In this document: piece by piece, positions 9,802-36,493 of the stretch
How positions within the stretch are numbered: the first letter of the stretch is position 1
Layout of the letters: each line of letters starts with the position of its first letter
NCBI GenBank assembly: GCA_020445665.1
Contig: JAGRGD010000258.1
Location: 1 to 38,279 of the forward strand
DNA length: 38,279 bases
Reading direction: 5' to 3'
Source of the DNA: Rhodocyclaceae bacterium
GTDB taxonomy: Bacteria; Pseudomonadota; Gammaproteobacteria; Burkholderiales; Rhodocyclaceae
Notes under the pieces: generated by a model
The model's input: the letters and a program-made list of their open reading frames with translations, nothing else
Database searches by the model: none
What the model was told of the DNA's origin: nothing
Translations under genes and position numbers: made by a program

Positions 9802-10986
9802 ATGGCAAATCGTGAAGTTGTGGTCCTCAGCGCTGTGCGTTCGGCGATCGGCACGTTTGGTGGCTCGCTGAGTAGCATGGAGCCTGCGGACCTGGCTGGC
9901 GCGGTGATGAAAGAAGCGGTCGCTCGCTCGGGCGCCGATCCCCAACTGATCAACTATGTGACGGTCGGCAACTGCATCCCGACCGAGTCGCGTTTCCCCT
10001 ATGTCGCCCGTGTCGCATCGATCCAGGCCGGCCTGCCGATGGACTCGGTCGCGATGGCCGTCAACCGCCTGTGCAGCTCGGGTCTGCAGGGCATCGTGAC
10101 GACCTCTCAGGCGATCATGCTCGGCGATTGCGATTTCGGCGTCGGCGGCGGCGTCGAAGTGATGTCCCGTGGCACCTACATGGCGCCGGCGATGCGCACC
10201 GGCGCGCGGATGGGTGACACCCAGATGATCGACTCCATGGTCGCGACCCTGACCGACCCGTTCGGTGCCGGCCACATGGGCATCACGGCCGAGAACCTGG
10301 CCGAGAAGTGGAACATCTCCCGCGAGGAGCAGGACGCCCTGGCTGTCGAGTCCCAGCGCCGCGCCGCGGCTGCCATCGCCGAGGGCCGCTTCAAGTCGCA
10401 GATCGTCCCGATCACGCTGAAGTCGCGCAAGGGCGAGACGATCTTCGACACCGACGAGCACGTCAAGGCCAGCACTACGATGGAAACGCTCGGCAAGATG
10501 CGTCCGGCCTTCAAGAAGGACGGCACCGTCACCGCGGGCAACGCCTCGGGCATCAACGACGGCGCCGCCTTCATGGTGCTGGCGGGTGCCGACGCCGCGG
10601 AGAAGGCCGGCTACAAGCCGATCGCCCGCTTGGTGTCGTATGCGGTTGCCGGTGTGCCGAACCACATCATGGGCGAGGGCCCGATCCCGGCCACCAAGCT
10701 GGCGCTGGGCCGTGCCGGCCTGACCCTCGATCAGATGGACGTGATCGAGTCCAACGAAGCCTTCGCGGCACAGGCGATCGCGGTTGCAAAGGGCCTCGGC
10801 CTGGACATGGCCAAGACCAACCCGAACGGTGGCGCCATCGCGCTGGGTCACCCGGTCGGTTGCTCGGGCGCCTTCATCGCGACCAAGGCGCTGTACGAAC
10901 TCGAGCGCATCGGCGGCCGGTACGCGCTGGTCACCATGTGCATCGGCGGCGGTCAGGGTATCGCCACGATCTTCGAGCGCATCTGA
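9802..10986 (+). CDS. Acetyl-CoA acetyltransferase / beta-ketothiolase, BktB-like
   Basis: Type II thiolase of 394 residues that condenses two acyl-CoA, or cleaves 3-ketoacyl-CoA, in the cytosol. The acylated nucleophile C91 lies in NRLCSSGLQ. The C-terminal half has VIESNEAFAAQ, the catalytic histidine in GHPVGCSGA, and the base cysteine in VTMCIGGGQG. Wording such as FDTDEHVK, GTVTAGNASGINDGAA and RYALVTMCIGGGQGIATIFERI is close to BktB, the broad-range ketothiolase of polyhydroxyalkanoate synthesis. No pha gene is adjacent, so assignment to PHA synthesis rather than fatty-acid or aromatic degradation is open. GGAGGGAAG precedes the ATG, and a strong terminator follows. Confidence 0.9.
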   Translation: MANREVVVLSAVRSAIGTFGGSLSSMEPADLAGAVMKEAVARSGADPQLINYVTVGNCIPTESRFPYVARVASIQAGLPMDSVAMAVNRLCSSGLQGIVTTSQAIMLGDCDFGVGGGVEVMSRGTYMAPAMRTGARMGDTQMIDSMVATLTDPFGAGHMGITAENLAEKWNISREEQDALAVESQRRAAAAIAEGRFKSQIVPITLKSRKGETIFDTDEHVKASTTMETLGKMRPAFKKDGTVTAGNASGINDGAAFMVLAGADAAEKAGYKPIARLVSYAVAGVPNHIMGEGPIPATKLALGRAGLTLDQMDVIESNEAFAAQAIAVAKGLGLDMAKTNPNGGAIALGHPVGCSGAFIATKALYELERIGGRYALVTMCIGGGQGIATIFERI

Positions 10987-11014
10987 GCGCGCTTCGGCCC
11001 CTGCGGTCGATGAG

Positions 11015-11044
11015 AAAACCCCCGCAAGTGCGGGGGTTTTTTTT
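11015..11044 (+). terminator. Rho-independent terminator after the thiolase gene
   Basis: An 11-bp stem of AAAACCCCCGC with its complement around an AAGT loop, followed by a run of T. It separates the thiolase gene from the Anbu-operon promoter region. Confidence 0.95.
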
Positions 11045-11057
11045 CGACCAGGGCAGG

Positions 11058-11074
11058 CGCACCAAGCTGCGCCG
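11058..11074 (+). promoter_or_regulatory. Possible NtrC binding site, distal
   Basis: The left half CGCACCA matches 6 of 7 bases of the NtrC half-site TGCACCA; the right half TGCGCCG is poor (4 of 7). It starts 31 bp, about three helical turns, upstream of the stronger site. Weak on its own; supported by that spacing. Confidence 0.35.
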
Positions 11075-11088
11075 CCATCTGGCGCCAA

Positions 11089-11105
11089 TGCACTGTTGTG
11101 GTGCC
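11089..11105 (+). promoter_or_regulatory. Possible NtrC binding site, proximal
   Basis: TGCACTGTTGTGGTGCC has the 7-3-7 architecture of NtrC sites (TGCACCA, 3 bases, TGGTGCA). Five of seven match in the left half and six of seven in the right. Its centre is about 75 bp upstream of the start point expected from the sigma-54 element. Confidence 0.55.
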
Positions 11106-11143
11106 GGACAGGGGGCGTTGGTGGGGGGAATCTGCCAATTTGC

Positions 11144-11159
11144 TTGGCACGCTTCTCGC
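11144..11159 (+). promoter_or_regulatory. Sigma-54 (RpoN)-type promoter for the Anbu operon
   Basis: TTGGCACGCTTCTCGC has the invariant GG (11146-11147) and GC (11158-11159) separated by exactly ten bases. It matches the TGGCAC-N5-TTGC consensus with one mismatch (TCGC). It lies 51 bp before the ATP-grasp start codon and downstream of two NtrC-like sites. Confidence 0.6.
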
Positions 11160-11210
11160 GATGTGCTGTCCAGACACTGACAACCTATCTGCCCAGGCGA
11201 GTGACCCTAC

Positions 11211-12629
11211 ATGCCCATCACGGAGTTCTACGACGAAATGACAGGAGACGGTGGCCTGGTCCGTCCCCACTACGCCGACGTGTCGAAATGGCTCGACAAG
11301 ATGTCGGCCGAGCGGCTCGATCGCAAGCGTGCGGAGGCGCACGCGTTGTTTCACCGGTCCGGCATCACGTTTGCGGTCTACGGTGAGGATGCCGGGACCG
11401 AGCGCTTGATCCCCTTCGACATCATTCCGCGCATCATCACGGCCTCAGAATGGTCGACGCTGAAGCGAGGCCTGAAGCAGCGGGTCATGGCGCTGAACGC
11501 GTTCATCCGCGACATCTACCATGAACGGGCGATTCTCAAGGACGGGCTGATTCCGCCCGAGGACGTGCTGGGCAACGCCCAGTACCGCCAGGAGATGATC
11601 GGCGTCGCGGTGGCGCACGATGTCTATGCCCACATCGCTGGCGTCGACATCGTGCGGGCAGGCGAGGGTGAGTTCTACGTCCTCGAGGACAACCTCCGGG
11701 TGCCTTCGGGGGTGTCCTACATGTTGGAGGACAGGCGCATGATGATGCGCCTGTTCCCTGAGCTTTTCGCGAGCAACCGGGTTGCTCCGGTGGACCACTA
11801 TCCCAACCTCCTGCTCGACACCATGCGCAGCGTCGCGCCAGCCGGGCAGGACGATCCGACCGTGGTCGTGATGACGCCCGGAGCCTACAACAGTGCCTAT
11901 TTCGAGCATGCCTTCCTGGCGCAGCAGATGGGGGTCGAACTGGTCGAGGGTCAGGATCTCTTCGTGGCCGACGATCAGGTCTACATGCGCACCACCCAGG
12001 GGCCCAGACGCATCGACGTGATCTACCGCCGGATCGACGATGACTTCCTCGATCCGACCGTTTTCCGCAAGGATTCGATGCTTGGTGTCCCCGGCCTGCT
12101 GCAGGCCTACCGGGCCGGCAAGGTGACACTGGCCAACGCCGTCGGCGGCGGCCTTGCCGACGACAAGTCGATCTACCCCTATGTGCCGGAGATGATTCGC
12201 TTCTACCTCGGCGAGGAGCCGATCCTGAAGAATGTCCCCACCTATCGCTGTCGCGACGAAGGCGATCTTTCCTACGTACTTGCCAATCTCGATGACCTTG
12301 TCGTCAAGGAGGTCCACGGCGCTGGTGGTTACGGCATGCTGGTAGGGCCGACATCGAGCAAGGCCCAGATCGAGGCCTTCCGGGAACGACTCGTGGCGAG
12401 CCCGGGCAAATACATCGCACAGCCCACGCTGTCCCTGTCGGCATGCCCGACCTTTGTCGAGAGCGGCGTCGCGCCGCGTCATATCGACCTGCGTCCCTTC
12501 GTGCTGTCGGGCAAGGAGGTGCACATGGTGCCGGGTGGGCTGACGCGTGTGGCGCTGACGGAGGGATCGCTGGTGGTGAATTCGTCGCAGGGCGGCGGCA
12601 CCAAGGACACCTGGGTGCTGGAGGCCTGA
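11211..12629 (+). CDS. Circularly permuted ATP-grasp protein (DUF404/DUF407)
   Basis: 472-residue protein of the circularly permuted type-2 ATP-grasp family, predicted to form amide or peptide-like bonds using ATP. Family segments include FHRSGITFAVYGE, GLKQRVMALNAFIRDIYHERAILKDG, GEFYVLEDNLRVPSGVSYMLEDR, LVEGQDLFVADDQVYMRT, the VVKEVHGAGGYGMLVGP glycine-rich region and HIDLRPFVLSGKEVHMVPGGLTRVAL near the end. It is the first gene of the Anbu operon and is followed 6 bp later by the alpha-E gene. In such operons it is thought to make a small peptide or modify a protein; the product is unknown. The Shine-Dalgarno sequence is weak; the preceding sigma-54-type promoter supports this start. Confidence 0.93.
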   Translation: MPITEFYDEMTGDGGLVRPHYADVSKWLDKMSAERLDRKRAEAHALFHRSGITFAVYGEDAGTERLIPFDIIPRIITASEWSTLKRGLKQRVMALNAFIRDIYHERAILKDGLIPPEDVLGNAQYRQEMIGVAVAHDVYAHIAGVDIVRAGEGEFYVLEDNLRVPSGVSYMLEDRRMMMRLFPELFASNRVAPVDHYPNLLLDTMRSVAPAGQDDPTVVVMTPGAYNSAYFEHAFLAQQMGVELVEGQDLFVADDQVYMRTTQGPRRIDVIYRRIDDDFLDPTVFRKDSMLGVPGLLQAYRAGKVTLANAVGGGLADDKSIYPYVPEMIRFYLGEEPILKNVPTYRCRDEGDLSYVLANLDDLVVKEVHGAGGYGMLVGPTSSKAQIEAFRERLVASPGKYIAQPTLSLSACPTFVESGVAPRHIDLRPFVLSGKEVHMVPGGLTRVALTEGSLVVNSSQGGGTKDTWVLEA

Positions 12630-12635
12630 ACGAAT

Positions 12636-13583
12636 ATGCTGAGTCGCACCGCTGATCACTTGTTCTGGATGGCCCGCTACATGGAGCGGGCCGAGAACAC
12701 CGCGCGCATGCTCGACGTGTGCTACCGGGTTTCCCTGATGCCCCAGAGCCCTGAGGAGGCCGAGCAGAACTGGATCGCCCTGCTGCGCATCATGTCTCTC
12801 GAGCCCCAGTACCGAGAAACCTGCGGAGAGGTGGAGGGCAGCCGCGTGCTGCGCTTCATGATCTTCGATCCGGAGAACCCCTCTTCCATCCGCAACTGCC
12901 TGCGGGCAGCTCGGGAAAACGCGCATGCCGTGCGCGACACGCTCACGGCCGAACTGTGGGAGACGATGAACGCCACCTGGATCAAGGTCCGCGGTCTCAC
13001 GCCGGAGATCATGGAAGACCGGGGCGTGGGCGAATTCTTCGAGTGGGTCAAGTACCGCTCCCATCTGTCCCGCGGGGTCACGATCGGCACCATGCTGCAG
13101 GACGAGGCCTGGCGGTTCATCCGCCTCGGCACCTTCCTGGAGCGGGCAGACAACACCGCGCGGATCCTCGACGTGAAGTACCAGGTCCTGGTCACCGAGG
13201 ACGACGAGGAGGACGCCGACTACCACCGCTGGAGTGCACTCCTGCATTCGGTTTCAGCCTTCGAGGTCTATCGCAAGGTCTATCGCGACCTGATCTCGCC
13301 GGTGAAGGTGGCTGAACTGCTGATCCTCAACCCCCTGATGCCGCGCTCCCTGGCGCGCTGCGTCAGGGAGGTCTTCGTGAACCTGCAGGAGGTTGCCAAC
13401 GACCGCTCCGCCGAAACCATCCGGCGCGCCGGGGAACTGGAGGCGTCGCTGCGCTTCGGTCGGGTGGACGTCCTGATCGAGCAGGGCCTGCATCCCTTCC
13501 TCGACCGCTTCATGGACCGGATCTATGATCTGGGCAACCGGATCTCCGACGACTTCCTGATTCCGGTGCGCAACACGGGCTGA
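12636..13583 (+). CDS. Alpha-E domain protein (DUF403)
   Basis: 315-residue, almost wholly alpha-helical cytosolic protein. The start MLSRTADHLFWMARYMERAENTARMLDV is the alpha-E hallmark, and a second RLGTFLERADNTARILDVKY repeats it around residue 165. The two motifs carry the conserved E-R-A-(E/D)-N-T-A-R-(M/I)-L-D pattern. GGAGG lies 11 bases before the ATG. The family always accompanies ATP-grasp DUF404/407 proteins and probably works with them; no catalytic activity has been established. The next gene starts 104 bp downstream, a larger gap than the 6 bp upstream. Confidence 0.93.
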   Translation: MLSRTADHLFWMARYMERAENTARMLDVCYRVSLMPQSPEEAEQNWIALLRIMSLEPQYRETCGEVEGSRVLRFMIFDPENPSSIRNCLRAARENAHAVRDTLTAELWETMNATWIKVRGLTPEIMEDRGVGEFFEWVKYRSHLSRGVTIGTMLQDEAWRFIRLGTFLERADNTARILDVKYQVLVTEDDEEDADYHRWSALLHSVSAFEVYRKVYRDLISPVKVAELLILNPLMPRSLARCVREVFVNLQEVANDRSAETIRRAGELEASLRFGRVDVLIEQGLHPFLDRFMDRIYDLGNRISDDFLIPVRNTG

Positions 13584-13687
13584 GCGTTGCGTCCGAGCCA
13601 CGCAAGCGGAGGGCCTCCTCTGTTTGCGCTGGCTGTCGAACCCGGCGGGCCGGATAATCCGCTACCGCATATCCGGAGTGACCTGCC
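13584..13687 (+). other. Gap where a transglutaminase-like gene would be expected
   Basis: 104 bp between the alpha-E and Anbu genes. In many ATP-grasp/alpha-E/Anbu operons a transglutaminase-like cysteine peptidase gene is part of the cluster; here there is none and no remnant is readable. A GATAAT at 13653-13658 could be a -10 element, but no -35 at good spacing is seen. GGAGTG serves the Anbu start. Confidence 0.5.
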
Positions 13688-14425
13688 ATGACCTACTGCG
13701 TCGGCATCCTGCTCGCGTCGGGCATGGTGATGCTGTCCGACTCGCGCACCAACGCGGGCGTCGACCACATCAACACCTTCCGCAAGATGAGTCGCTTCGA
13801 GCGCCCGGGAGAGCGCTGCCTGGTGCTGATGACGGCCGGCAACCTGGCAATCACCCAGGCGGTGGTCTCCGTTCTGCGGGAAGCGGAGTGCGCCGGCGAC
13901 GGCCGTACGAGCCTGCTCACGGCGGAGAACATGTTCGAGGCGGCGCGTCACGTGGGTGACACGCTGCGGGCGGTGTACGCCCGCGACGCCGAGTCGCTAT
14001 CCGCCTTCGGCATCGACTTCAATGCCAGCCTGATCCTCGGCGGACAGATCGCCGGCGATCCGCCACGCCTGTTCAGCATCTACGCGGCCGGCAACTTTAT
14101 CGAGGCGACGCGCGAGACACCGTACTTCCAGATCGGAGAATCGAAGTACGGCAAGCCGATCCTCGACCGGGTGCTGCGCTGGGACACCTCGCTGGACGAG
14201 GCCGCCAAGTGCGCCCTGATCTCCATGGATTCGACCATCCGCTCGAACCTGTCGGTCGGTCTGCCCCTTGATCTGGTGACGATGGAGGCCAACGTGCTGG
14301 CGCTGCGCTCGCAGGTGCTGGTGGATGCCGACAACGCCTACTTCAGCATGGTGCGGAATCGGTGGGGCAGCGCCCTGCGGGATGCCTTCGATGCGATCCC
14401 GAACCCGGACGTTGGCCTGAGCTGA
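13688..14425 (+). CDS. Anbu proteasome-type peptidase
   Basis: 245-residue member of the Anbu (ancestral beta subunit) group, related to HslV and proteasome beta subunits. Removing the initiator Met exposes Thr as N-terminal nucleophile (TYCVGILLASG). Counting from it, D17 (LSDSRTN) and K32 (TFRKMSRF) occupy the places of the proteasome Asp17 and Lys33. Other typical segments are VLMTAGNLAITQAV, NASLILGGQI, LFSIYAAGNFIEA and FQIGESKYGKPILDR. Anbu subunits assemble into open helical or ring-like oligomers; natural substrates are unknown. It is last in the operon and converges with rsgA with only 4 bp between stops. Confidence 0.93.
   Translation: MTYCVGILLASGMVMLSDSRTNAGVDHINTFRKMSRFERPGERCLVLMTAGNLAITQAVVSVLREAECAGDGRTSLLTAENMFEAARHVGDTLRAVYARDAESLSAFGIDFNASLILGGQIAGDPPRLFSIYAAGNFIEATRETPYFQIGESKYGKPILDRVLRWDTSLDEAAKCALISMDSTIRSNLSVGLPLDLVTMEANVLALRSQVLVDADNAYFSMVRNRWGSALRDAFDAIPNPDVGLS

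Positions 14426-33772: not shown

Positions 33773-36493
<2,721 letters not shown>

Follow-up and report, generated by a model that had tools for sequence, protein, structure and literature searches.

The window analysed here, a stretch of 38,279 nucleotides, makes up contig C166 in an assembly of 4.79 Mb; the named genomes closest to this assembly are Rhodocyclaceae from metagenomes. Profile matches place together in it the genes for a circularly permuted ATP-grasp protein (CP-ATP-grasp), an Alpha-E (DUF403) protein and Anbu, a proteasome-like Ntn hydrolase; these form a same-strand run, and 11058-11210 lies between them and the terminator of a preceding thiolase gene. The features of this region are as follows:

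11015-11044, + strand: intrinsic terminator, a stem-loop CCCCCGC-AAGT-GCGGGGG followed by a T run, 3' of the thiolase gene
11058-11074, + strand: second, weak NtrC-like site CGCACCAAGCTGCGCCG, 7/12 to consensus, centred 79 bp upstream of the TGG of the promoter element
11089-11105, + strand: NtrC-like enhancer site TGCACTGTTGTGGTGCC, 11/12 to consensus, centred 48 bp upstream of the TGG
11145-11159, + strand: sigma54 -24/-12 promoter element TGGCACGCTTCTCGC (TGGCACG-N4-TCGC), 10/11 to consensus
11169-11173, + strand: transcript start region as predicted from the usual geometry of sigma54 promoters, which puts the start about 12 bases past the GC
11211-12629, + strand: CP-ATP-grasp protein, 472 aa (PF14403, E 5.3e-170)
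12636-13583, + strand: Alpha-E (DUF403) protein, 315 aa (PF04168, E 7e-101)
13688-14425, + strand: Anbu, 245 aa (PF00227, E 3.5e-7)

The predicted terminator, whose region (11008-11048) has a folding energy of -25.7 kcal/mol (z -6.16), divides the thiolase unit from the ATP-grasp/alpha-E/Anbu unit; a consensus scan returned no sigma70-like promoter at 10800-11400, and this terminator was likewise missing from the output of the scan that sought such promoters. By a hand count against the residues named in the excerpted text of a structural study (PMC6376114), the Anbu translation contains Thr1, Asp17 and Lys32 if its Met is removed. A tblastn search of the window with the transglutaminase-like protein of locus L135 gave no match at E 1e-8, and the 104 bp between alpha-E and anbu (13584-13687) hold no transglutaminase gene. 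In many relatives the ATP-grasp-to-anbu distance is about 1 kb, which leaves space for alpha-E only. A further contig of the same genome (L026) carries a cluster with matches to ATP-grasp (37%), alpha-E (23%) and a transglutaminase-like protein (29%).

Scoring was done against the sigma54 consensus TGGCACG-N4-TTGC and the NtrC consensus TGCACY-N5-RGTGCA. The sequence-only reading had proposed a GG-N10-GC sigma54 element at 11144-11159 (TTGGCACGCTTCTCGC), a site of NtrC form at 11089-11105 and a weaker similar site 31 bp further upstream, that is, paired sites about three helical turns apart in front of a sigma54 promoter for the ATP-grasp, alpha-E and Anbu genes. The sequence agrees with this arrangement: the first two elements are exact in position, with the GG (11146-11147) and GC (11158-11159) ten bases apart, and the sole mismatch of the sigma54 element is a T to C change in the -12 (TCGC vs the consensus TTGC). 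The weaker site is a mixed case, since its start lies exactly 31 bp upstream of that of the stronger site, as proposed, but its score is at chance level, 71.84 of 72 shuffled regions reaching such a value.

Strict sigma54 and NtrC patterns each occur once in the window, against 0.27 and 0.22 expected, and when the window is shuffled 25 and 17 of 100 shuffles contain a sigma54-like or NtrC-like site somewhere. With an expectation of 0.2-0.3 per strict pattern, a lone element in the window is unremarkable. The combined pattern GCAC-N7-GTGC-N(20-50)-TGGCAY-N5-YNGC has a single occurrence across the two strands of the 4.79-Mb assembly, at this locus, and its reversed control likewise has one. Single elements scored in the window alone are thus too weak a basis for a decision, and it is comparative evidence from conservation, rather than pattern counts in the window, that decides the matter. 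A 10/11 sigma54-like match (TGGCACGGGGGCTGC) is also present on the minus strand at 35118, inside a long minus-strand ORF (33773-36493), and is probably a chance occurrence.

The ATP-grasp gene is present in all six genomes of the genus, and the sigma54 element is found in each of the five with assessable upstream DNA, the contig of the sixth (G004) ending 31 bp upstream of the gene. In these five the element has the form TGGCAC[G/A]-N4-TCGC and lies 59-66 bp ahead of the start codon, and an NtrC-like site scoring 10-11/12 is centred 47-48 bp (four genomes) or 59 bp (G001) upstream of the TGG. The GCACC half of the second site, judged by eye, persists at the 31-bp offset in 4 of the 5 sequences. 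We rejected this second site as an independent match on its score and retained it on positional conservation only; since the half-site is kept at the same offset in most of the genus, the candidate site at 11058-11074 is probably real despite its chance-level score.

For comparisons beyond the genus, upstream regions were drawn from 150 family genomes (64 with an Anbu match) and 80 named loci in addition to the genus. Of 67 family anbu matches (own match and a weak match in G054 excluded) 59 were used, those left out being G070 and G082 (contig ends), G019, G135, G104, G055:C72, G100 and G123. In 41 of the resulting 145 sequences anbu was not preceded by an ATP-grasp gene that could be used; the remaining 104 gave 90 distinct regions, among them the window and the Anbu-less L024, once L178, L209, regions shorter than 150 bases and near-duplicates were removed. 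In 66 of the 90 regions the orthologous ATP-grasp gene is preceded, at 20-110 bp, by a sigma54 element scoring at least 9/11, vs 2.0 per shuffled set; on the opposite strand such an element occurs in only 3 of 90, so that the upstream comparison in relatives, which had been suggested along with the original reading, bears out the conservation of GG-N10-GC. The loci bearing the element include those of Thauera, Accumulibacter, Steroidobacter and one Cellvibrionaceae genome. Among the 24 regions below 9/11 six reach 8/11, some, e.g. Undibacterium loci, retain the -24 while losing the final C of the -12, and others have no element. The -12 of sigma54 promoters typically extends to TTGC[A/T], and the base after the GC, which was not part of the score, is T in 57 of 70 cases; the window has G. 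NtrC-like sites follow the same trend: among the 72 regions with a sigma54 score of at least 8/11, 48 have a site of at least 10/12, vs 2.06 in shuffles, and a site of at least 11/12 is present in 28, vs 0.14. A second site of at least 9/12 occurs in 50 of 78 regions, vs 15.3 with shuffled flanks, in a selected set made up of these 72 and of L215-L220, separated ATP-grasp loci having the element.

The element becomes sparse away from this group of orthologues. It was found in 6 of 34 second-clade ATP-grasp genes (53-57% identical) and in none of 26 further paralogues, which leaves nitrogen control of every ATP-grasp paralogue unsupported. The comparison loci included 40 high-scoring places taken out of a longer list. 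Only one of six class-wide ATP-grasp loci (L240-L245, 58-70% identity) has a proximal element of at least 9/11, and therefore the pattern weakens outside the family; in L241 a sigma54 element of 9/11 lies 153 bp upstream, and in L242 one of 11/11 lies 200 bp upstream.

The distances between NtrC-like sites and the promoter are not spread evenly but cluster at 47-48, 59-60, 71, 80, 91-93 and 102-104 bp. For 67 sites scoring at least 10/12 the phasing has R 0.66 with a best period of 10.9 bp. It persists when the set is thinned to 57 regions that share less than 45% ungapped identity, where R is 0.65 for 45 sites, vs R 0.15 for 63 sites of shuffled regions, and 25 further loci yielded 17 sites with R 0.73 and a phase identical to that of the main set. 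Nominal phase p-values are too small, because the relatives share descent and are not independent. Sites that occupy different slots of one helical series in different genomes are the expected trace of an activator predicted to act by looping to the polymerase.

The genome encodes the predicted partners of such a promoter, namely RpoN (TIGR02395, 479.9 bits, cut-off 277.35) and NtrC (TIGR01818, 694.3 bits, cut-off 558.6, with a single match above cut-off). Its two amtB-type genes, on contigs C14 and C285 (the latter as glnK-amtB), served as positive controls, and their sigma54 elements score 8/11 and 10/11. Upstream of the C14 gene (L239, 1309-1433) is TGGTATGGTCCTCGC, which shares the TCGC variant of the -12 with the window and has NtrC-like sites with centres 71 and 102 bp further upstream; on C285, upstream of the reading frame preceding glnK-amtB (L238, 84-225), is TGGCACGGATCCTGC, with NtrC-like sites at 71, 102 and 119 bp. 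The 71 and 102 bp sites of both amtB loci are thus 31 bp apart, as in the window. The window promoter is like the classical NtrC-sigma54 promoters (glnA, glnK-amtB) in GG-N10-GC, paired NtrC sites and helical phasing, but unlike them it would control an operon for amide-bond enzymes.

The sequence-only reading had centred on Anbu, whereas the promoter tracks the ATP-grasp/alpha-E pair. Among 25 ATP-grasp loci with no adjacent Anbu (22 from genomes in which no Anbu was found, G054 giving only a 66-residue match at E 5.5e-4, and 3 with Anbu elsewhere) 21 have the sigma54 element and 16 of these also an NtrC-like site of at least 10/12; one of them, L305, is probably a single operon divided by a contig end, and the count becomes 20 of 24 when it is set aside. 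Nine ATP-grasp orthologues (L215-L223) are separated from Anbu, and six of them keep an element of at least 9/11 together with an NtrC-like site of at least 10/12. The remaining three, from Burkholderia, Paraburkholderia and Xenophilus genomes, have no proximal element of at least 9/11, the sigma54 score of L223 being only 8/11. In L221 (Paraburkholderia kururiensis) and L222 (Burkholderia sp.) a post hoc inspection revealed CGGCATGGAAGTTGC at 376 and 336 bp, respectively, on the upstream side of the aligned start of the ATP-grasp gene. In-phase NtrC-like sites precede it by 93 bp (11/12) and 47 bp (9/12), and such distal elements may reflect a long leader. None of 27 distinct stand-alone anbu genes (from 30 loci, of which L181 and L204 have less than 0.9 kb of upstream DNA) has a sigma54 element or NtrC-like site in the 300 bp upstream that were scanned. 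In G001 (L024, 7740-10115 and downstream) there is no anbu between alpha-E and rsgA, its place in the window, nor was Anbu found in this genome in the search of the 150 family genomes, and the promoter is intact. As the promoter is kept without Anbu, is absent at stand-alone anbu genes and is rare in paralogues, these comparisons suggest that the switch goes with one ATP-grasp/alpha-E clade, of which Anbu would be a frequent passenger.

A different arrangement is seen in eight loci where an ATP-grasp gene of a 52-55% identical clade and anbu are divergently oriented (L155, L156, L157, L159, L167, L169, L174 and L186). Here two opposed, near-palindromic sigma54 elements have one GC (-12) in common, e.g. 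TGGCCTGATCTTTGCAAGGAGCGTGCCA; the ATP-grasp-facing element scores 10-11/11 in all eight and the anbu-facing one keeps its GG in seven. This may be a bidirectional sigma54 promoter. In four of these loci a sigma70-like TGCTATGCT, noted by eye, lies closer to anbu. The opposed pair is absent from the divergent locus L131, a further set of divergent loci mostly has no sigma54 element, and no report of such pairs was found among the matches listed for one phrase search of the literature.

Nitrogen control of these gene families is not new in kind, because it is published for a Pseudomonas putida operon and, with sigma54 and NtrC, for a Burkholderia cenocepacia cluster. As far as the excerpts of the papers cited here extend, expression of P. 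putida PP_2685-PP_2688 goes up when nitrogen is limiting (PMC8050072, PMC7801951, PMC3325844). A promoter fragment of PP_2688 (ATP-grasp) rose 3.7-fold on nitrogen depletion, and a fragment of PP_2685 (anbu) was nitrogen-agnostic, as was that of glnK, an expected responder (PMC8050072). The same study saw a strong rise of the PP_2685 transcript itself on nitrate, another saw it up under nitrogen limitation (PMC3325844), and in a third data set PP_2686-2688 were up 11-15-fold in the wild type with PP_2685 at 1.12-fold (PMC7801951). In the rpoN mutant of the latter study PP_2686-2688 were still induced 14-20-fold, as were the urt genes (PMC7801951 Table 2), and therefore this operon is a poor fit to strict sigma54 dependence. 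The P. putida operon (PP_2688-PP_2685: ATP-grasp, alpha-E, transglutaminase, Anbu; PP_2687 being probably alpha-E by gene order) shares its gene families with the window, along with a nitrogen-responsive ATP-grasp promoter fragment, but has a transglutaminase gene between alpha-E and Anbu that the window lacks, and the likeness is drawn from the papers rather than from P. putida DNA.

In B. cenocepacia a cluster of ATP-grasp, DUF403 and transglutaminase genes is reported to depend on NtrC and sigma54: I35_5080-I35_5083 of strain H111 encode DUF404/407, DUF403, a transglutaminase-like and a large transglutaminase-like protein, in a strain mutated in ntrC the first two genes change by -8.2 and -9.4 fold, and the paper lists the cluster among common sigma54/NtrC targets (PMC5491218, in part). 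Unlike in the window, no Anbu is named for this cluster in the excerpted text, and the orthology of the pair to that of the window is drawn through Burkholderia and Paraburkholderia genomes (73-74% identity), where the candidate promoter is more distal. A predicted sigma54 regulon has an entry for COG3484, proteasome-type protease, and the part of that paper covered neither gives activator sites for it nor sets Anbu apart from the ATP-grasp pair (PMC12316311). Structural papers citing Hervas 2008 state, in the portions seen, that Anbu is raised in nitrogen-limited P. putida (PMC5666114, PMC6376114), and one of them that the Yersinia bercovieri ATP-grasp protein frees phosphate from ATP and that no peptidase activity of Anbu was detected (PMC6376114). 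Among the papers listed in our literature search we found no report of phased NtrC sites or of the separation of the promoter from Anbu; the Hervas 2008/2009 studies on P. putida, which lay outside this search, may contain such sites.

The sequence elements are present, conserved, phased and associated with the ATP-grasp gene, and we consider it very likely that an NtrC-activated sigma54 promoter drives the ATP-grasp/alpha-E operon. The alternative that the promoter serves Anbu, with the protease needed in nitrogen starvation and ATP-grasp and alpha-E as its helpers, appears unlikely: Anbu closes the same-strand run and two P. putida data sets have its transcript up on nitrate or nitrogen limitation (PMC8050072, PMC3325844), but the element recurs at most ATP-grasp loci that lack Anbu or have it elsewhere, including G001, and is missing from the stand-alone anbu genes. 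The P. putida anbu fragment also did not respond, though neither did that of glnK (PMC8050072), and the third data set has no induction of PP_2685 in the wild type (PMC7801951).

A real sigma54 promoter with an activator other than NtrC seems to us less probable still. It is conceivable because the NtrC model has 112 matches in the genome, 24 of which reach into the central activator domain, and 24 of the 72 regions have no NtrC-like site of at least 10/12; against it stand a site of NtrC consensus form that is phased to the promoter and common to both of the genome's own amtB loci, and the NtrC dependence published for the related B. cenocepacia cluster (PMC5491218). That the elements are chance matches, the operon being read from a sigma70 promoter, could be entertained from the shuffles of the window, but position, co-occurrence, conservation and phasing speak against it, as does the outcome of the sigma70 scan; it is refuted at the level of conservation and we give it almost no credence. 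The sequence-only reading is upheld in part: the sequence supports a sigma54/NtrC promoter with paired sites, the rpoN-mutant data of P. putida speak against strict sigma54 dependence, and the emphasis on Anbu finds no support.

Based on these observations we propose that in nitrogen-limited cells phosphorylated NtrC would occupy 11089-11105 and, by cooperative binding, the weaker 11058-11074 on the same helix face. The bound NtrC would loop to sigma54-RNA polymerase at 11145-11159, and transcription would begin near 11171 and proceed through ATP-grasp and alpha-E, anbu being presumably reached by read-through. ATP-grasp enzymes form amides via an acyl phosphate, and the products of the operon would probably both form and cleave such bonds in a peptide or protein during nitrogen starvation, which is the least certain step of this scheme. 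The regulation gives only loose grounds for the physiological role that had been claimed for the peptidase system.

The portions of the literature covered name no substrate for Anbu, a relative of the proteasome. One proposal, which we believe and doubt in equal measure, is that ATP-grasp/alpha-E is a self-standing nitrogen-starvation enzyme and an old member of the NtrC regulon in beta- and some gamma-proteobacteria, with Anbu as an optional extra, gained and lost while the promoter stays the same; the substrate of Anbu should therefore be the product of ATP-grasp/alpha-E rather than bulk protein. Our preferred guess is that this would be an amide-bonded product of nitrogen starvation, trimmed by Anbu where Anbu is present. 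With the switch tied to ATP-grasp/alpha-E and many genomes carrying both pair and switch but no Anbu, the place to seek such an amide-bonded product would be nitrogen-starved cells with and without Anbu.
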